NCBI RefSeq assembly: GCF_000296445.1
Contig: NZ_JH815198.1
Location: forward strand, 1,551,114 to 1,615,113
DNA: 64,000 bases
Source: Slackia piriformis YIT 12062
Lineage (GTDB): Bacteria > Actinomycetota > Coriobacteriia > Coriobacteriales > Eggerthellaceae
Direction: 5' to 3'
In this document: piece after piece, positions 13,103 through 49,820 of the stretch
How positions within the stretch are numbered: position 1 is the first letter of the stretch
Layout: each line of letters begins with the position of its first letter
Translations under genes and position numbers: made by a program
The notes under the pieces: model-generated
The model's input: the letters and a program-made list of their open reading frames with translations, nothing else
The model's database searches: none
What the model was told of the DNA's origin: nothing

Positions 13103-13375
13103 GGAATGTCCCTTCGCATCTGGATAATGCGGAGAATTATAGTCCACGCCCTTGCCGCCGCCGTTCACGCCCCGTCAACACACCGAAAAGGCTCAGACGC
13201 AGATTAAAATGCACCAAACTGCCGTGCGAAACTCGCAAAATGCGCGAAACGTACCCGATTTACAGCGCGCCTGCAGCTCATAGCACAATTTCCCTCACGT
13301 TATTCCACATTTATCAATACTTTGTCTATTTTCATAGATTATATCCTGAAATGCTCGGAACGCATTGATACACTT

Positions 13376-13499
13376 CGTGCGTTTTGCGAATCCGAGGGAG
13401 CGAGCTCGTGCATTTTGCGAGTCCGAAGGGGCGAACCCATGCGTTTTCCGAACCCAAGGGAACGAATCCGTGCGTCTTTCGAGCCCGAAAAACGCAGGC
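13376..13499. repeat. Four tandem imperfect 31-bp repeats
   Basis: Units at 13376-13406, 13407-13437, 13438-13468 and 13469-13499 all have exactly 31 bp. They share CGTGCGTTTT, then GAG/AAC-CCGA, then GGGAGCGA-like blocks. They lie 274 bp upstream of the M16C start and downstream of the LuxR 1 stop. Because 31 is not a multiple of three, the open frames seen across them are probably fortuitous. The rest of 13103-13671 contains no gene I can support. Confidence 0.8.
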
Positions 13500-13671: not shown

Positions 13672-15132
13672 TCATCCTTTCGATTCAACAAGGTCTATCA
13701 ATTCCTGATGCGAATGCACTCCAAGCTTTGCGTACACGTGCGAAACGTGAGTCTTCACCGTATTGTACGAAACGACCAGGGTCTCCTGGATATAGCGAGC
13801 ATTGCGCCCGTGCGCCAAGAGCAGAAACACCTCCCGCTCACGCTCGGTCAGGCATGCGTCTGTGGCAAGCCTGCCGCAGCGCTCTTCCAGCGACCCTTCG
13901 TCGCCGCCTTCTTCTTTTCCTTCGACGACCTTGACGTCGACGGACGGCAAAACCGACTCGATGGTCTTCGAGAAGCTGAATGTGCCGAGCACGAACAGCA
14001 CGTAGGCAACCAGAACGAAAACCACAGCAGCCGAGATGATAGCAAGAACCGTGCCGTCGGTCCGATACGCCTCGTTCGTCACCCTTCCGAACACAGCCCC
14101 CAGGATGGTTCCCCACGAAGCCATTGCGTTACCCCAAGCAAACACGGAAAGAGCGCCCGTTGGATTTTTCGCTCCGATTGCAATAAGCACGTAGTACATG
14201 AGTATCTCGAAGATGCCCGTCCCCGCAGAGAGCAGCGAGCTCGCAAGCGCGTCGCGCGGAGTGCCCGTTATGGAGAGAACGAGAAAACCCGCCACCGAGA
14301 CAAGAATCGACACGCGGAACAACCCATCGGAAGAAAGAGGTTTGCTGCTGGCGAACACGCACACGGCAACGGCACACAGCGCAGCCAACGCCGAAAATGC
14401 AACCACGGGTACGCGATCGACTTCGCCGAAAGTCAGAGAATAGCCGTAAACAAATCGAAAGACGACCAGCGATATAAACACCTGATGGCCGAACGGAACG
14501 AACGAACCAGGCGAAGTGATGGATATCTGAGCAGGAGAATCGCTGCTGGAAAAATCACGCACACGCAGCGAAAGCCGCGCCGACAAAGCAACGGCCCCGA
14601 TCGGAAAAAGCAAAAACATCGCCAGATTTGCCTCGAGAGGCAGGATGCGGAAAAGACCGCGAAGCACAAACGATGCGACATAGGACCACACGACGACGAT
14701 GCCGGCACGACGCAAAGTAAGACCGGTGCAGGCAAGACCGACGCAGATGTTTGCAAGTCCTCCCCCAACAGTTACAAGCGAAGCGCCCGCAACCGTGAGA
14801 AAAACCGAATCGCACAACGTCCCCGCCACGCACAACGCGCCGCCGACCGCCATCAAGAAGACGACACCCCATGTGAAAATGCGGCCGTCGAGAGGATGCG
14901 ACCTCCAAAACGACAATACGGCGATAGCGGCAAGCGCCGCTCCTCCGACACACGCGCTCACTTCGCGCGTCCATATGAAAATCAAGTCGAACAGCGGAAA
15001 GGCGCTGTAATTCAGCAGCCAGTATTCGGAAAACGTCAGCGTGAGCGCCAAGGCGCACAGCATAGTCGGACCGTTCTCTCCCCCGCACGCACGAGCCTTG
15101 GCCAACATGGCCCGCTGCATGATATTGCCCAC
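13672..15132 (-). CDS. LuxR-type regulator 1 with 12-helix membrane domain
   Basis: About 486 residues. The first 400 form roughly 12 hydrophobic helices arranged like a transporter. The last 65 are a LuxR/FixJ-type HTH (LTEREREVFLLLAHGRNARYIQETLVVSYNTVKTHVSHVYAKLGVHSHQELIDLV). Proteins of this design in Eggerthella lenta are membrane sensors that control a neighbouring reductase operon. I favour the GTG at 15132, with AAGGGAGG 5 nt upstream; ATG codons at 15156 and 15120 are alternatives. It is divergent from the flavoprotein at 15545 and is presumably its activator. The ligand is unknown. Confidence 0.88.
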   Translation of the reverse strand: MGNIMQRAMLAKARACGGENGPTMLCALALTLTFSEYWLLNYSAFPLFDLIFIWTREVSACVGGAALAAIAVLSFWRSHPLDGRIFTWGVVFLMAVGGALCVAGTLCDSVFLTVAGASLVTVGGGLANICVGLACTGLTLRRAGIVVVWSYVASFVLRGLFRILPLEANLAMFLLFPIGAVALSARLSLRVRDFSSSDSPAQISITSPGSFVPFGHQVFISLVVFRFVYGYSLTFGEVDRVPVVAFSALAALCAVAVCVFASSKPLSSDGLFRVSILVSVAGFLVLSITGTPRDALASSLLSAGTGIFEILMYYVLIAIGAKNPTGALSVFAWGNAMASWGTILGAVFGRVTNEAYRTDGTVLAIISAAVVFVLVAYVLFVLGTFSFSKTIESVLPSVDVKVVEGKEEGGDEGSLEERCGRLATDACLTEREREVFLLLAHGRNARYIQETLVVSYNTVKTHVSHVYAKLGVHSHQELIDLVESKG

Positions 15133-15191
15133 CAAACCCTCCCTTACAGTGCGCATTCATGCAGGGTATTCTAGCAGGAGAGACTCCTCGA

Positions 15192-15210
15192 CGTACGGGC
15201 TAAGCGTACG
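15192..15210. promoter_or_regulatory. Possible operator between LuxR 1 and flavoprotein 1
   Basis: Two copies of the palindromic hexamer CGTACG (15192-15197 and 15205-15210) are separated by 7 nt, forming a symmetric site close to the LuxR 1 start in the divergent promoter region. This is the strongest dyad I see there. Binding by LuxR 1 is inferred from position only. Confidence 0.35.
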
Positions 15211-15360
15211 AAAACATCTCATACCGCAACTACATTTTCCCAGTTCAAATTACATTTCGATAAATCTCACCCGAGTAGTACGACGCGTTTTTCGCACACG
15301 AGGCATACGATTTCGTCGTTCGAACGCTTCGTCCGTGAAACGCCGTCGCGTTGCACGACC

Positions 15361-15449
15361 CGCAAGGCCGCGTCCGCACCAGCATCGGCCCGCAGGGCGC
15401 GTCCGTATCGGTATCGACCTGCAAGGCCGCGTCCGCAGCAACATCGGCC
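15361..15449. repeat. Three tandem 29-30-bp repeats in the flavoprotein 1 leader
   Basis: Units 15361-15390, 15391-15419 and 15420-15449 share GCAAGGCCGCGTCCG and CATCGGCC cores. The second unit is one base shorter. They end about 95 nt before the flavoprotein start, so they may lie in its 5' untranslated region. No ORF with a ribosome-binding site reads through them. Confidence 0.75.
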
Positions 15450-15544
15450 TCGCTGTCTTTTGCCGAACGCAGCTGCACCGCTGTGCAACGCAAGCGCGCC
15501 GCATATGGATACGAAGCAGAAACGACATACAAGGAGGGAATTTC

Positions 15545-17238
15545 ATGAAGACCGAAACCAAGGGCATGTCTCGCCGCGCATTCTTGGGCCTTGGCGCCGC
15601 CACGGCGGCTATCGCAGGAGCAGGCCTTGCCGGGTGCTCCGCCGGAAAGCCTGCCACCGCGCCTAAGGCAGGCGGCGCAGCCGAAGACTGGCTCGGCTCC
15701 GCACCGGAAATCGCCGAAGACGAAATCGTCGAAACCATCGACACCGAAATCCTTGTCTGCGGCGCAGGCACGTCAGTGTCTGCGGCGCAGGCACGTCAGG
15801 ACTTTTTGCCGCATGCTCCGCAGCCGAAGAAGGCGCAAAGGTAGTCTGCCTTGAAAAAGGCGCCATCGGCGGCGGCGTGCGCGACAACCTCGGAGCACTC
15901 AACAGCCGACTGCAGCAAGAGGCGGGCGAGACGATCGACGAAAACGAAATCGTCAACGACATGATCCGCTACGCGGACAACTACTGCAACCCACGCCTGT
16001 ACCACATCTGGGCGCAAAACTCCGGTGAGGCGATCGACTGGTATCAGGACCGTCTCGAAGAAGCAGGATTCGAGCTCTTCTTCGAGGGCGCGAAAGATGC
16101 CAAGCCCTCTCTGTACAAACACTGGGCTACCGGCCATATTCCCAGCTGGCCCGCCGATACTGAATTCGCCGGCCTTTCCGACGTTGTCAACGGCAAAATC
16201 GTCCTGGGCGATTACGCGGAATCCAAGGGCGTCGAATTCCGCTTCAACACCCCCATGGTCAAGCTTGTCCAGGACGAAAGCGGCGCAGTAACGGGCGCAA
16301 TCGCCGAAGGACCCGACGGCTATATCAAAATCAACGCAAGCAAAGGCACGGTGGTGTGCACGGGCGGCTACGCACGCAACGAAGACATGCTCAAAGCCCT
16401 GCAGCCTCAGACCATGGACAAGTACTCCCTCTCCATTGCCATCGATGGCACCACGGGCGACGGCATCAAGGCATGCCTGTGGGCGGGCGCTCACATGGAC
16501 GAGGTCCACACCGCGATGGTCTTCGACCGCGTTGCCGTAAAGCCCGACGAGTTCGGCGGATCGGACACGGTCGGCTCCTTGTTCTGGATGGGTTCCAACC
16601 CGTGGCTGAAGGTCAATCTCAACGGCGAGCGCTTCGCCAACGAAGCCGCACCGTACGATTACATCCTCAACGCCACGCTGACACAACCGCACCATACCGT
16701 TGTCGATATCTGGGACTCGGACTACGAACAGTATCTCGAGCAGTTCGACATCCACGGATGCGCACGCGTCAACGGCGCTCCCACCAACATGACGCTCGAT
16801 GCCGTCAAAGGCCTCAACCAGGGTCTGATCGACGACGGATACATTGTCGTCGCCGACACCATCGAAGAACTCGCCGAGGGCCTGGGCATCCCCGCCGATG
16901 CGCTTAAGGCGACGGTCGAGCGACAGAACGAAAACTTCGATGCCGGCGTTGACCCCGATTTTGGCAAAGACACGCACCGTCTGTCCGCTATCCGTACCGC
17001 TCCGTTCTACGGCGTGCGCACCTCCGGCTACATGCTGTGCACCCTGGACGGCATCACCATCAACGAGAACTTCCAGGCCGTAAACGACGGAGGCGAAGCG
17101 ATCGAGGGCCTCTATGTCACGGGCGTCGATTCGGGATCGTACTACGCGCATACGTATCCGAATATGTCCACCGGCAACTGCTGCGGATGCTCCGTCACCT
17201 TTGCACGTATGATCGGCAAGGCGCTGGCCGCGAAGTAG
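15545..17238 (+). pseudogene. Tat-exported FAD reductase (fumarate-reductase-like), frameshifted by a 23-bp duplication
   Basis: A flavoprotein of the fumarate reductase/3-ketosteroid dehydrogenase type. It starts at ATG 15545 behind AAGGAGG with a twin-arginine signal (SRRAFLG) and lipobox (LAGC, Cys31). Just inside the FAD-binding loop (TEILVCGAGTS) the frame shifts: 15754-15776 is repeated exactly at 15777-15799. Removing one copy restores the frame precisely and gives the expected GAGTSGLFAACSAAEEGAKVVCLEKG, then an intact reading frame to 17238 (556 residues). The rest shows no decay, so the lesion looks recent or switchable; an assembly error is also possible. It lacks an FMN or heme domain. 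It is divergent from LuxR 1. Substrate unknown, presumably an organic electron acceptor. Confidence 0.92.
15754..15799. repeat. Exact 23-bp tandem duplication in flavoprotein 1
   Basis: The 23 bases at 15754-15776 recur identically at 15777-15799. The copies encode the glycine-rich dinucleotide-binding loop (CGAGTS). A 23-bp insertion shifts the frame, and excision of one copy by slippage or recombination would repair it. Confidence 0.97.
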
Positions 17239-48996: not shown

Positions 48997-49116
48997 CAAC
49001 ACATGGCCTTCTCCTCGTTGCGAGGCAATACGCCCCACAATGCACGGCTTCTCCCCGTTGCGAGGCAACACGCCCCACAATGCACGGCTTCTCCCCGTTG
49101 CGAGGCAACACGCCCC
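48997..49116. repeat. Three tandem 40-bp repeats between the DMT transporter and luxS
   Basis: Units 48997-49036, 49037-49076 and 49077-49116. The last two are identical and the first differs at a few positions. Each contains GTTGC-GAG-GCAAC, a 5-bp hairpin, and ends CACGCCCC. They lie in the divergent region, starting 112 bp upstream of the transporter and ending 100 bp upstream of luxS. Confidence 0.85.
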
Positions 49117-49681: not shown

Positions 49682-49696
49682 AGCCCCCGGCGAAAC

Positions 49697-49820
49697 GCGC
49701 ACCCGCGCACCCGCGCACCCGCGCACCCGCGCACCCGCGCACCCGCGCACCCGCGCACCCGCGCACCCGCGCACCCGCGCACCCGCGCACCCGCGCACCC
49801 GCGCACCCGCGCACCCGCGC
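49697..49820. repeat. Perfect 8-bp microsatellite (ACCCGCGC)15 after luxS
   Basis: Fifteen uninterrupted copies of ACCCGCGC occupy 49701-49820, preceded by a partial copy from 49697. The array lies between the luxS stop (49681) and the terminator at 49838, so it would be transcribed in the luxS 3' untranslated region. The open frames across it are consequences of the repeat. Confidence 0.97.

Follow-up and report, generated by a model that had tools for sequence, protein, structure and literature searches.

Tandem duplications in capsule genes of Streptococcus pneumoniae (the type 3 locus, cap8E and tts) are said to have been described by Waite in 2001 and 2003. In the pneumococcus, insertions no longer than 9 bp have an expected reversion of at most about 1e-5, according to the portion of one report available to us (PMC4022640). 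In Eggerthella lenta, three 12-TM LuxR regulators were found to activate adjacent catechol dehydroxylases in response to the substrates of these enzymes, and flavin-dependent enzymes are encoded close to 50 regulators of this type, according to the portion of a second source at hand (PMC9734109). Groups of E. lenta differ markedly in their sets of reductases, as stated in the part of a preprint that could be consulted (PMC13060105).

Here, we consider a reductase gene of Slackia piriformis YIT 12062 that is interrupted by a 23-bp tandem duplication, known from one assembly of one strain. The draft genome comprises 2,119,335 bases in 5 contigs. The gene lies in a stretch of 64,000 nucleotides (58.5% GC) that was analysed as a whole and is called the window; unlabelled positions refer to it.

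An Exact Duplication in the Dinucleotide-Binding Loop

The frame of the reductase gene starts at an ATG at 15545, preceded by a ribosome-binding-site-like AAGGAGGG (15531–15538, plus strand), and stops at a TAG (15842–15844) after 99 codons. This 5′ fragment (15545–15844, plus strand) carries the stretch SRRAFLGLGA and a LAGC motif, which we take to be a Tat-type signal and a lipobox, followed by the start of the FAD loop. The relatives have a stretch similar to SRRAFLGLGA, and the signal is a putative one. The rest of the enzyme is encoded in a second frame (15667–17238, plus strand), which is open from 15667 to 17235 and contains an intact VCGAGTSG loop.

The two frames result from an exact repeat. 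A 23-bp unit at 15754–15776 (plus strand) is directly followed by an identical copy at 15777–15799 (plus strand). The period-23 run occupies exactly 15754–15799 (46 bases, 2.0 copies, 100% identical), with 0 extra matching bases on either side. The duplicated stretch spans the VCGAGTSG dinucleotide loop, and the translated product exits this loop after GAGTS, leaving no intact N-terminal GxGxxG loop. Taking one copy of 23 nt out of the 1691 nt leaves 556 codons, to be compared with 558–566 codons in nine named relatives, counts that depend on the start picked by the analyst for each. An earlier note on this DNA had described an exact abutting duplication, a frame break inside the dinucleotide-binding loop and a complete 556-residue enzyme once one copy is removed. 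All three points are borne out, and the relatives are single-copy. As a control for chance, 20 order-3 shuffles of the window yielded a total of one exact tandem with a period of at least 12; by this measure, the 23-bp tandem is beyond chance.

The 453-codon remainder (15877–17238, plus strand) has no dinucleotide loop and matches FAD_binding_2 (PF00890) in a Pfam profile search, with 111 bits against a gathering cut-off of 20.4. Internal initiation giving a cytosolic enzyme with the intact second copy of the loop was considered and rejected, since the second frame has no ATG, GTG or TTG between 15667 and 15877; only CTG (15688 and 15757) and ATC (15865) are found there. By sequence, the closest solved structures are those of urocanate reductase and flavocytochrome c fumarate reductase. 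An AlphaFold model of an intact relative is poor (mean pLDDT 49) and usable only for the first strand-loop-helix. Within this zone, the most confident part of the model, the loop lies between the first strand (62–73) and the first helix (77–88) of the dinucleotide fold.

Intact and Broken Relatives

The extra 23 bases are absent from all nine named relatives in an alignment made at the DNA level. Twenty orthologue rows, corresponding to 13 distinct sequences after removal of 7 duplicates, all read unbroken through the GxGTxG loop; one of the 13, L015, has N near the loop. As settled by the sequences of these relatives, the duplication is the derived state. The idea that the repeat is a general feature of the locus was rejected, the unit being single-copy in 13/13 distinct intact orthologues.

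A survey of 138 genomes of the family included S. piriformis itself, a genome of the same genus designated G005, and 11 others with a full-length orthologue at at least 75% identity, all of which have open frames of at least 563 codons. At this identity threshold, 11 distinct intact loci stand against 3 broken ones, which bear three different lesions. G005 has kept only the C-terminal 209 residues of the reductase, with unrelated sequence ahead (L030 1501–2139, equivalent to C14:2720–3358). No orthologue-level front half was found in G005, where the best match to the front half of the reductase, 34% identical, is a paralogue. An orthologue-level match is also absent from the other 10 of the 12 genus genomes. 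In Adlercreutzia agrestimuris (L018 4719–5858), the last 286 residues of the reductase abut the last ~95 residues of the regulator (minus strand). The simplest reading would be that one deletion took the promoter region together with the fronts of both divergent genes. With its shortened gene, L018 was omitted from the orthologue alignments and analysed separately. Neither the G005 lesion nor that of A. agrestimuris can be undone by repeat collapse. As far as sequence tells, the reductase locus has been lost repeatedly in these bacteria.

Further Changes in the Gene and Signs of Selection

In an alignment of 15 sequences, made up of the window copy, the G005 remnant and 13 full orthologues, two other changes are confined to the window copy. 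At 16770/16771 (plus strand), an in-frame deletion of 12 nt removes an x-P-F-x loop found in 14/14 aligned relatives, and a Cys codon at 17188–17190 (plus strand) replaces an Arg that is likewise found in 14/14. The earlier note had held that the gene has no other lesions. This stands as regards stops and frameshifts, since no second one of either kind was found in the gene besides the break caused by the duplication; it does not stand as regards these two changes. Their effect on activity may or may not be significant. The deleted loop falls in a part that is not aligned to the solved structures. The Arg position aligns with an Asp of flavocytochrome c, and we take it to be distinct from the catalytic Arg of that family. 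A first count had given 12 window-only columns among 306 that are invariant in 11 other sequences. Four of these (positions 257, 357, 365, and 367) are shared by the G005 remnant and are therefore older; five in the front half (26, 29, 95, 120, and 137) lie where G005 has no sequence.

Selection was evaluated with a codon model on 13 sequences and 459 sites, using a fixed FastTree topology in which the window copy is paired with G005 (support 0.993). The two most divergent relatives, L015 and L017 (70% and 58% identical), were left out. Over the whole tree, omega is 0.052, against 0.037 for the window branch; synonymous sites are near saturation and the indel is left uncounted. Forcing omega to 1 on the window branch loses 6.4 log units, and letting a fraction of 0.05 at the end of this branch be neutral already costs 1.9 log units. 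Hence, no relaxed selection is observed: at most about 5% of the window branch is neutral, the test being a soft one. Seven other tips, fitted singly, gave omega values from 0.021 to 0.158. The lowest value belongs to the shortened G005 remnant, whose branch is saturated and which is surely not functional, and the highest to the intact L048. Because of the saturation, and because the G005 remnant is lower still and the intact L048 higher, omega is a weak clock. Within the limits of this soft clock, the absence of relaxed selection makes the break look recent, that is, young relative to the split from G005. The earlier note's proposal of a very recent knock-out is supported in this respect, as it is by the identity of the two copies and by the lack of any other stop or frameshift.

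The Divergent Regulator and the Reductase Set

Upstream of the reductase, a divergent gene (13672–15156, minus strand) has an intact frame of 494 residues. The predicted protein combines a hydrophobic part, in which a plain hydropathy scan marks 14 partly overlapping stretches (residues 63–400), with a C-terminal LuxR-type HTH (PF00196, residues 435–489). The intergenic region between the two genes (15157–15544), a putative promoter region, contains imperfect 30-bp repeats at 15359–15449; these and imperfect 31-bp repeats at 13375–13482 flank the regulator gene. Twelve genomes were searched for this neighbourhood. In all seven that have a full-length reductase orthologue, the best match to the regulator (48–56% identity) lies divergently beside it, which is evidence of position only. 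By analogy with the E. lenta systems, the broken reductase would be the target of a substrate-sensing regulator.

The gene belongs to a large set. A PF00890 search of the S. piriformis genome returned 42 rows. We read these as three relics and 29 full-length loci, of which 26 are single rows and 3 are divided over two rows; short weak rows were set aside, and some of the 29 loci may be housekeeping enzymes. The relics are a two-frame gene with an extra TGA (C2:191819–193137) and two C-terminal pieces (C1:190047–190424 and C1:1745540–1745842). No tandem duplication was found in the two of the three relics that lie in stretches scanned for tandems; the relic at C1:190047 was assessed by translation only. 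In the coordinates of single stretches, broken or shortened reductase genes of this genome stand at L097 11699–13329, L075 5540–5842 and L099 2048–2425. The one in L097 lies near two frames that we take to be transposase-like.

Other Tandem Repeats

Exact tandems with periods of 10–500 were searched for in the window and 40 further stretches, that is, in 864 kb of the 2119 kb genome, excluding compound units. Ten are listed. The 23-bp tandem is the sole one of its unit length and the only one with a period of 15–35 that has no extra matching base. The units of the other nine are 11, 13 (two), 14, 18 (two), 30, 40, and 113 bp, and the surroundings of five of these nine were inspected. The 11-bp tandem lies inside a frame that we take to be larC-like, and this frame remains open through it. 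The 14-bp tandem is at the end of a transposase-like frame, whereas a transporter-like frame has the 40-bp tandem at its front edge. One of the 13-bp tandems precedes the first long frame there, and the other follows a terminator-like hairpin. The notion that 23 reflects an assembler word length acting genome-wide is weakened by the lack of a second 23-bp tandem in these 864 kb of 2119 kb.

Several other repeats were observed. At 49696–49820 of the window, a perfect octamer array, CGCGCACC x 15.6, lies after a stop codon, between a gene that is presumably luxS-like and a hairpin. Arrays of this kind often vary in length. A divergent transporter-like frame has at its front edge (49008–49116) a 40-bp unit that is repeated 2.7 times, with copies 97% alike. 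Elsewhere in the genome, Thr- and His/Asp-rich simple repeats flank a run of 95 N in a larC-like frame (L075 9220–10497). A 113-bp unit is repeated 2.7 times at L088 10782–11086, an array that, judging from the letters, we take to resemble a tRNA gene array.

A Probable Recent Loss and Its Alternatives

The locus is probably a young pseudogene: a large set of reductases that changes quickly would have lost one of its members recently, in a way that could potentially revert. In such a scenario, a duplication of 23 bp would have arisen in the S. piriformis lineage and shifted the frame in the loop predicted to bind the FAD pyrophosphate. Only a stub of 99 residues would then be translated, and the remaining frame would have no common start codon taking in the loop. 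The product lost would be a flavin reductase that is inducible and exported. The predicted membrane regulator of LuxR type, encoded divergently in an intact frame, would probably still sense the substrate, with a target that yields no enzyme. Rare slippage or recombination between the exact copies could drop one of them, so the state would be potentially reversible. It is doubtful that activity would be regained after such a collapse, because of the two further unusual changes (the 12-nt deletion and the Arg-to-Cys replacement). Beyond what the sequences show, we infer the presence of the duplication in the cells, an inactive enzyme, a low frequency of reversion and a former role of the gene product as an electron-acceptor reductase. 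The "respiratory reductase" of the earlier note is reasonable in this regard, given the family and the context, from which the assignment is predicted.

Besides the weakness of omega as a clock, two observations weigh against this reading. The exactness and the recency of the duplication are equally expected of an active switch. In addition, the ends of the duplication show no microhomology (extra matching bases = 0), so no origin by slippage between pre-existing short repeats is visible. Such ends fit short-repeat slippage less well than they fit either an assembly overlap left unmerged or the joining of ends at a staggered break, both of which would give this pattern.

An assembly error is the first alternative to be weighed: the cells would be single-copy, and the assembler or a gap-closer would have abutted two pieces overlapping by 23 bases. 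A repeat made up of two whole 23-bp units and not a base more bears the signature of an unmerged overlap. The draft genome, in 5 contigs, has N runs (which may be gaps or withheld stretches) in 2 of the first 20 stretches, and the gene otherwise appears to be under selection. However, the window itself has no N, the tandem search gave no second 23-bp case in 864 kb of 2119 kb, and the two additional changes, seen in this copy alone, point faintly to a gene that is truly decaying. Overall, we consider an assembly error unlikely, though by no means negligible.

Apart from assembly, it can be proposed that the gene alternates between a one-copy (ON) and a two-copy (OFF) state by gain and loss of the repeat, as bet-hedging for a respiratory reductase. 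Exact tandem copies are able to revert, and pneumococcal capsule genes phase-vary through in-gene duplications, according to the part of the report that we could consult (PMC4022640). The doubled unit reaches −19.8 kcal/mol when folded as single-stranded DNA, a value matched by 6 of 1000 doubled shuffled units, and this strong hairpin may favour the loss of one copy. The absence of relaxed selection and the intact frame of the regulator also agree with a switch. However, none of the 13 intact relatives carries a standing repeat, and every passage to OFF would thus require a new duplication of unique sequence. The single-copy unit has an ordinary tendency to fold (z −0.45), the breaks of the gene in relatives are non-reverting, and the enzyme, with its two additional changes, may be impaired already. 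The on/off switch put forward in the earlier note has gained no positive evidence, the unit being single in 13/13 intact orthologues and the lesions of the other species irreversible by collapse; ordinary gene loss, occurring repeatedly, accounts for the findings better than a dedicated switch does. A phase-variable gene is in our view improbable, and the fuller version, in which the reversible duplication is a bet-hedging switch of one reductase in the large set of a gut actinobacterium, with the regulator kept ready, is highly improbable.

There is a very slight chance that the 12-nt deletion or the Arg-to-Cys replacement impaired the gene first, the duplication being a passenger. Both changes are absent from 14/14 relatives, including the nearest (G005); against such an older decay stand the low omega on the branch and the lack of any stop or second frameshift. 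Recoding is hardly credible. The frames share the interval 15667–15844, and a −1 slip in translation or transcription, for instance at the CTTTTTG immediately behind the repeat (15802–15808), would restore the frame and have the sign of common programmed frameshifts. However, this site is not a canonical heptamer (X XXY YYZ), the eight extra residues would fall inside the GxGxxG loop, and no frame shift is seen at this point in any of the 20 orthologue rows.

Neither of two further searches returned a trace of the lesion: an exact match to copy 2 with its right flank was not found in viral contigs, and a literature search gave nothing pointing to this 23-bp lesion, from which no claim of its absence from print is made. 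A scan of genome contigs listed no further genome of S. piriformis, a result of little weight, since records close to the window's own may be missing from such a list.

Comparison With Known Systems

If the duplication is real, the recent loss of this gene provides a clean example of how a member is lost from the large sets of exported reductases of Eggerthellaceae. Three species have this enzyme-regulator pair in broken form, each through a different kind of lesion. In that case, genome-based predictions of respiration or transformation by such a strain also need frame checking. If switching were true, phase variation would extend to anaerobic respiration in gut actinobacteria, and it would concern an electron-acceptor enzyme and not a surface structure.

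In having a duplication inside the open reading frame as a potentially revertible OFF state, the locus is similar to the capsule genes of S. pneumoniae (type 3 locus, cap8E and tts). It differs from them in that phase variation of the capsule genes was reported in culture, whereas here a metabolic reductase is seen in one assembly. With its predicted Tat-type signal and its PF00890 domain, the enzyme resembles the exported flavin reductases of Eggerthellaceae, which are fumarate-reductase-like (Cgr2, for example; described in the portion of PMC5953540 at hand), except that the frame is broken here. A LuxR-type regulator, here a predicted membrane protein, in divergent adjacency is also shared with systems of this family, whose neighbouring LuxR regulators are of the 10–12-TM kind (as far as the accessible parts of PMC5953540 and PMC9734109 go). 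However, the E. lenta regulators tested, in the part of the latter source available, control catechol dehydroxylases rather than this reductase (PMC9734109). With urocanate reductase (PDB 6t85) and flavocytochrome c fumarate reductase (PDB 1d4c), the region of the dinucleotide loop aligns, although the similarity is low (E about 1e-23 for the single sequence) and the loop at 16770 is unaligned. Finally, the gene is like an ordinary bacterial pseudogene or a strain-variable loss, being frame-broken, otherwise open, and lost separately in relatives. It departs from an ordinary pseudogene in that the lesion is an exact tandem duplication, which is easier to reverse than a deletion.
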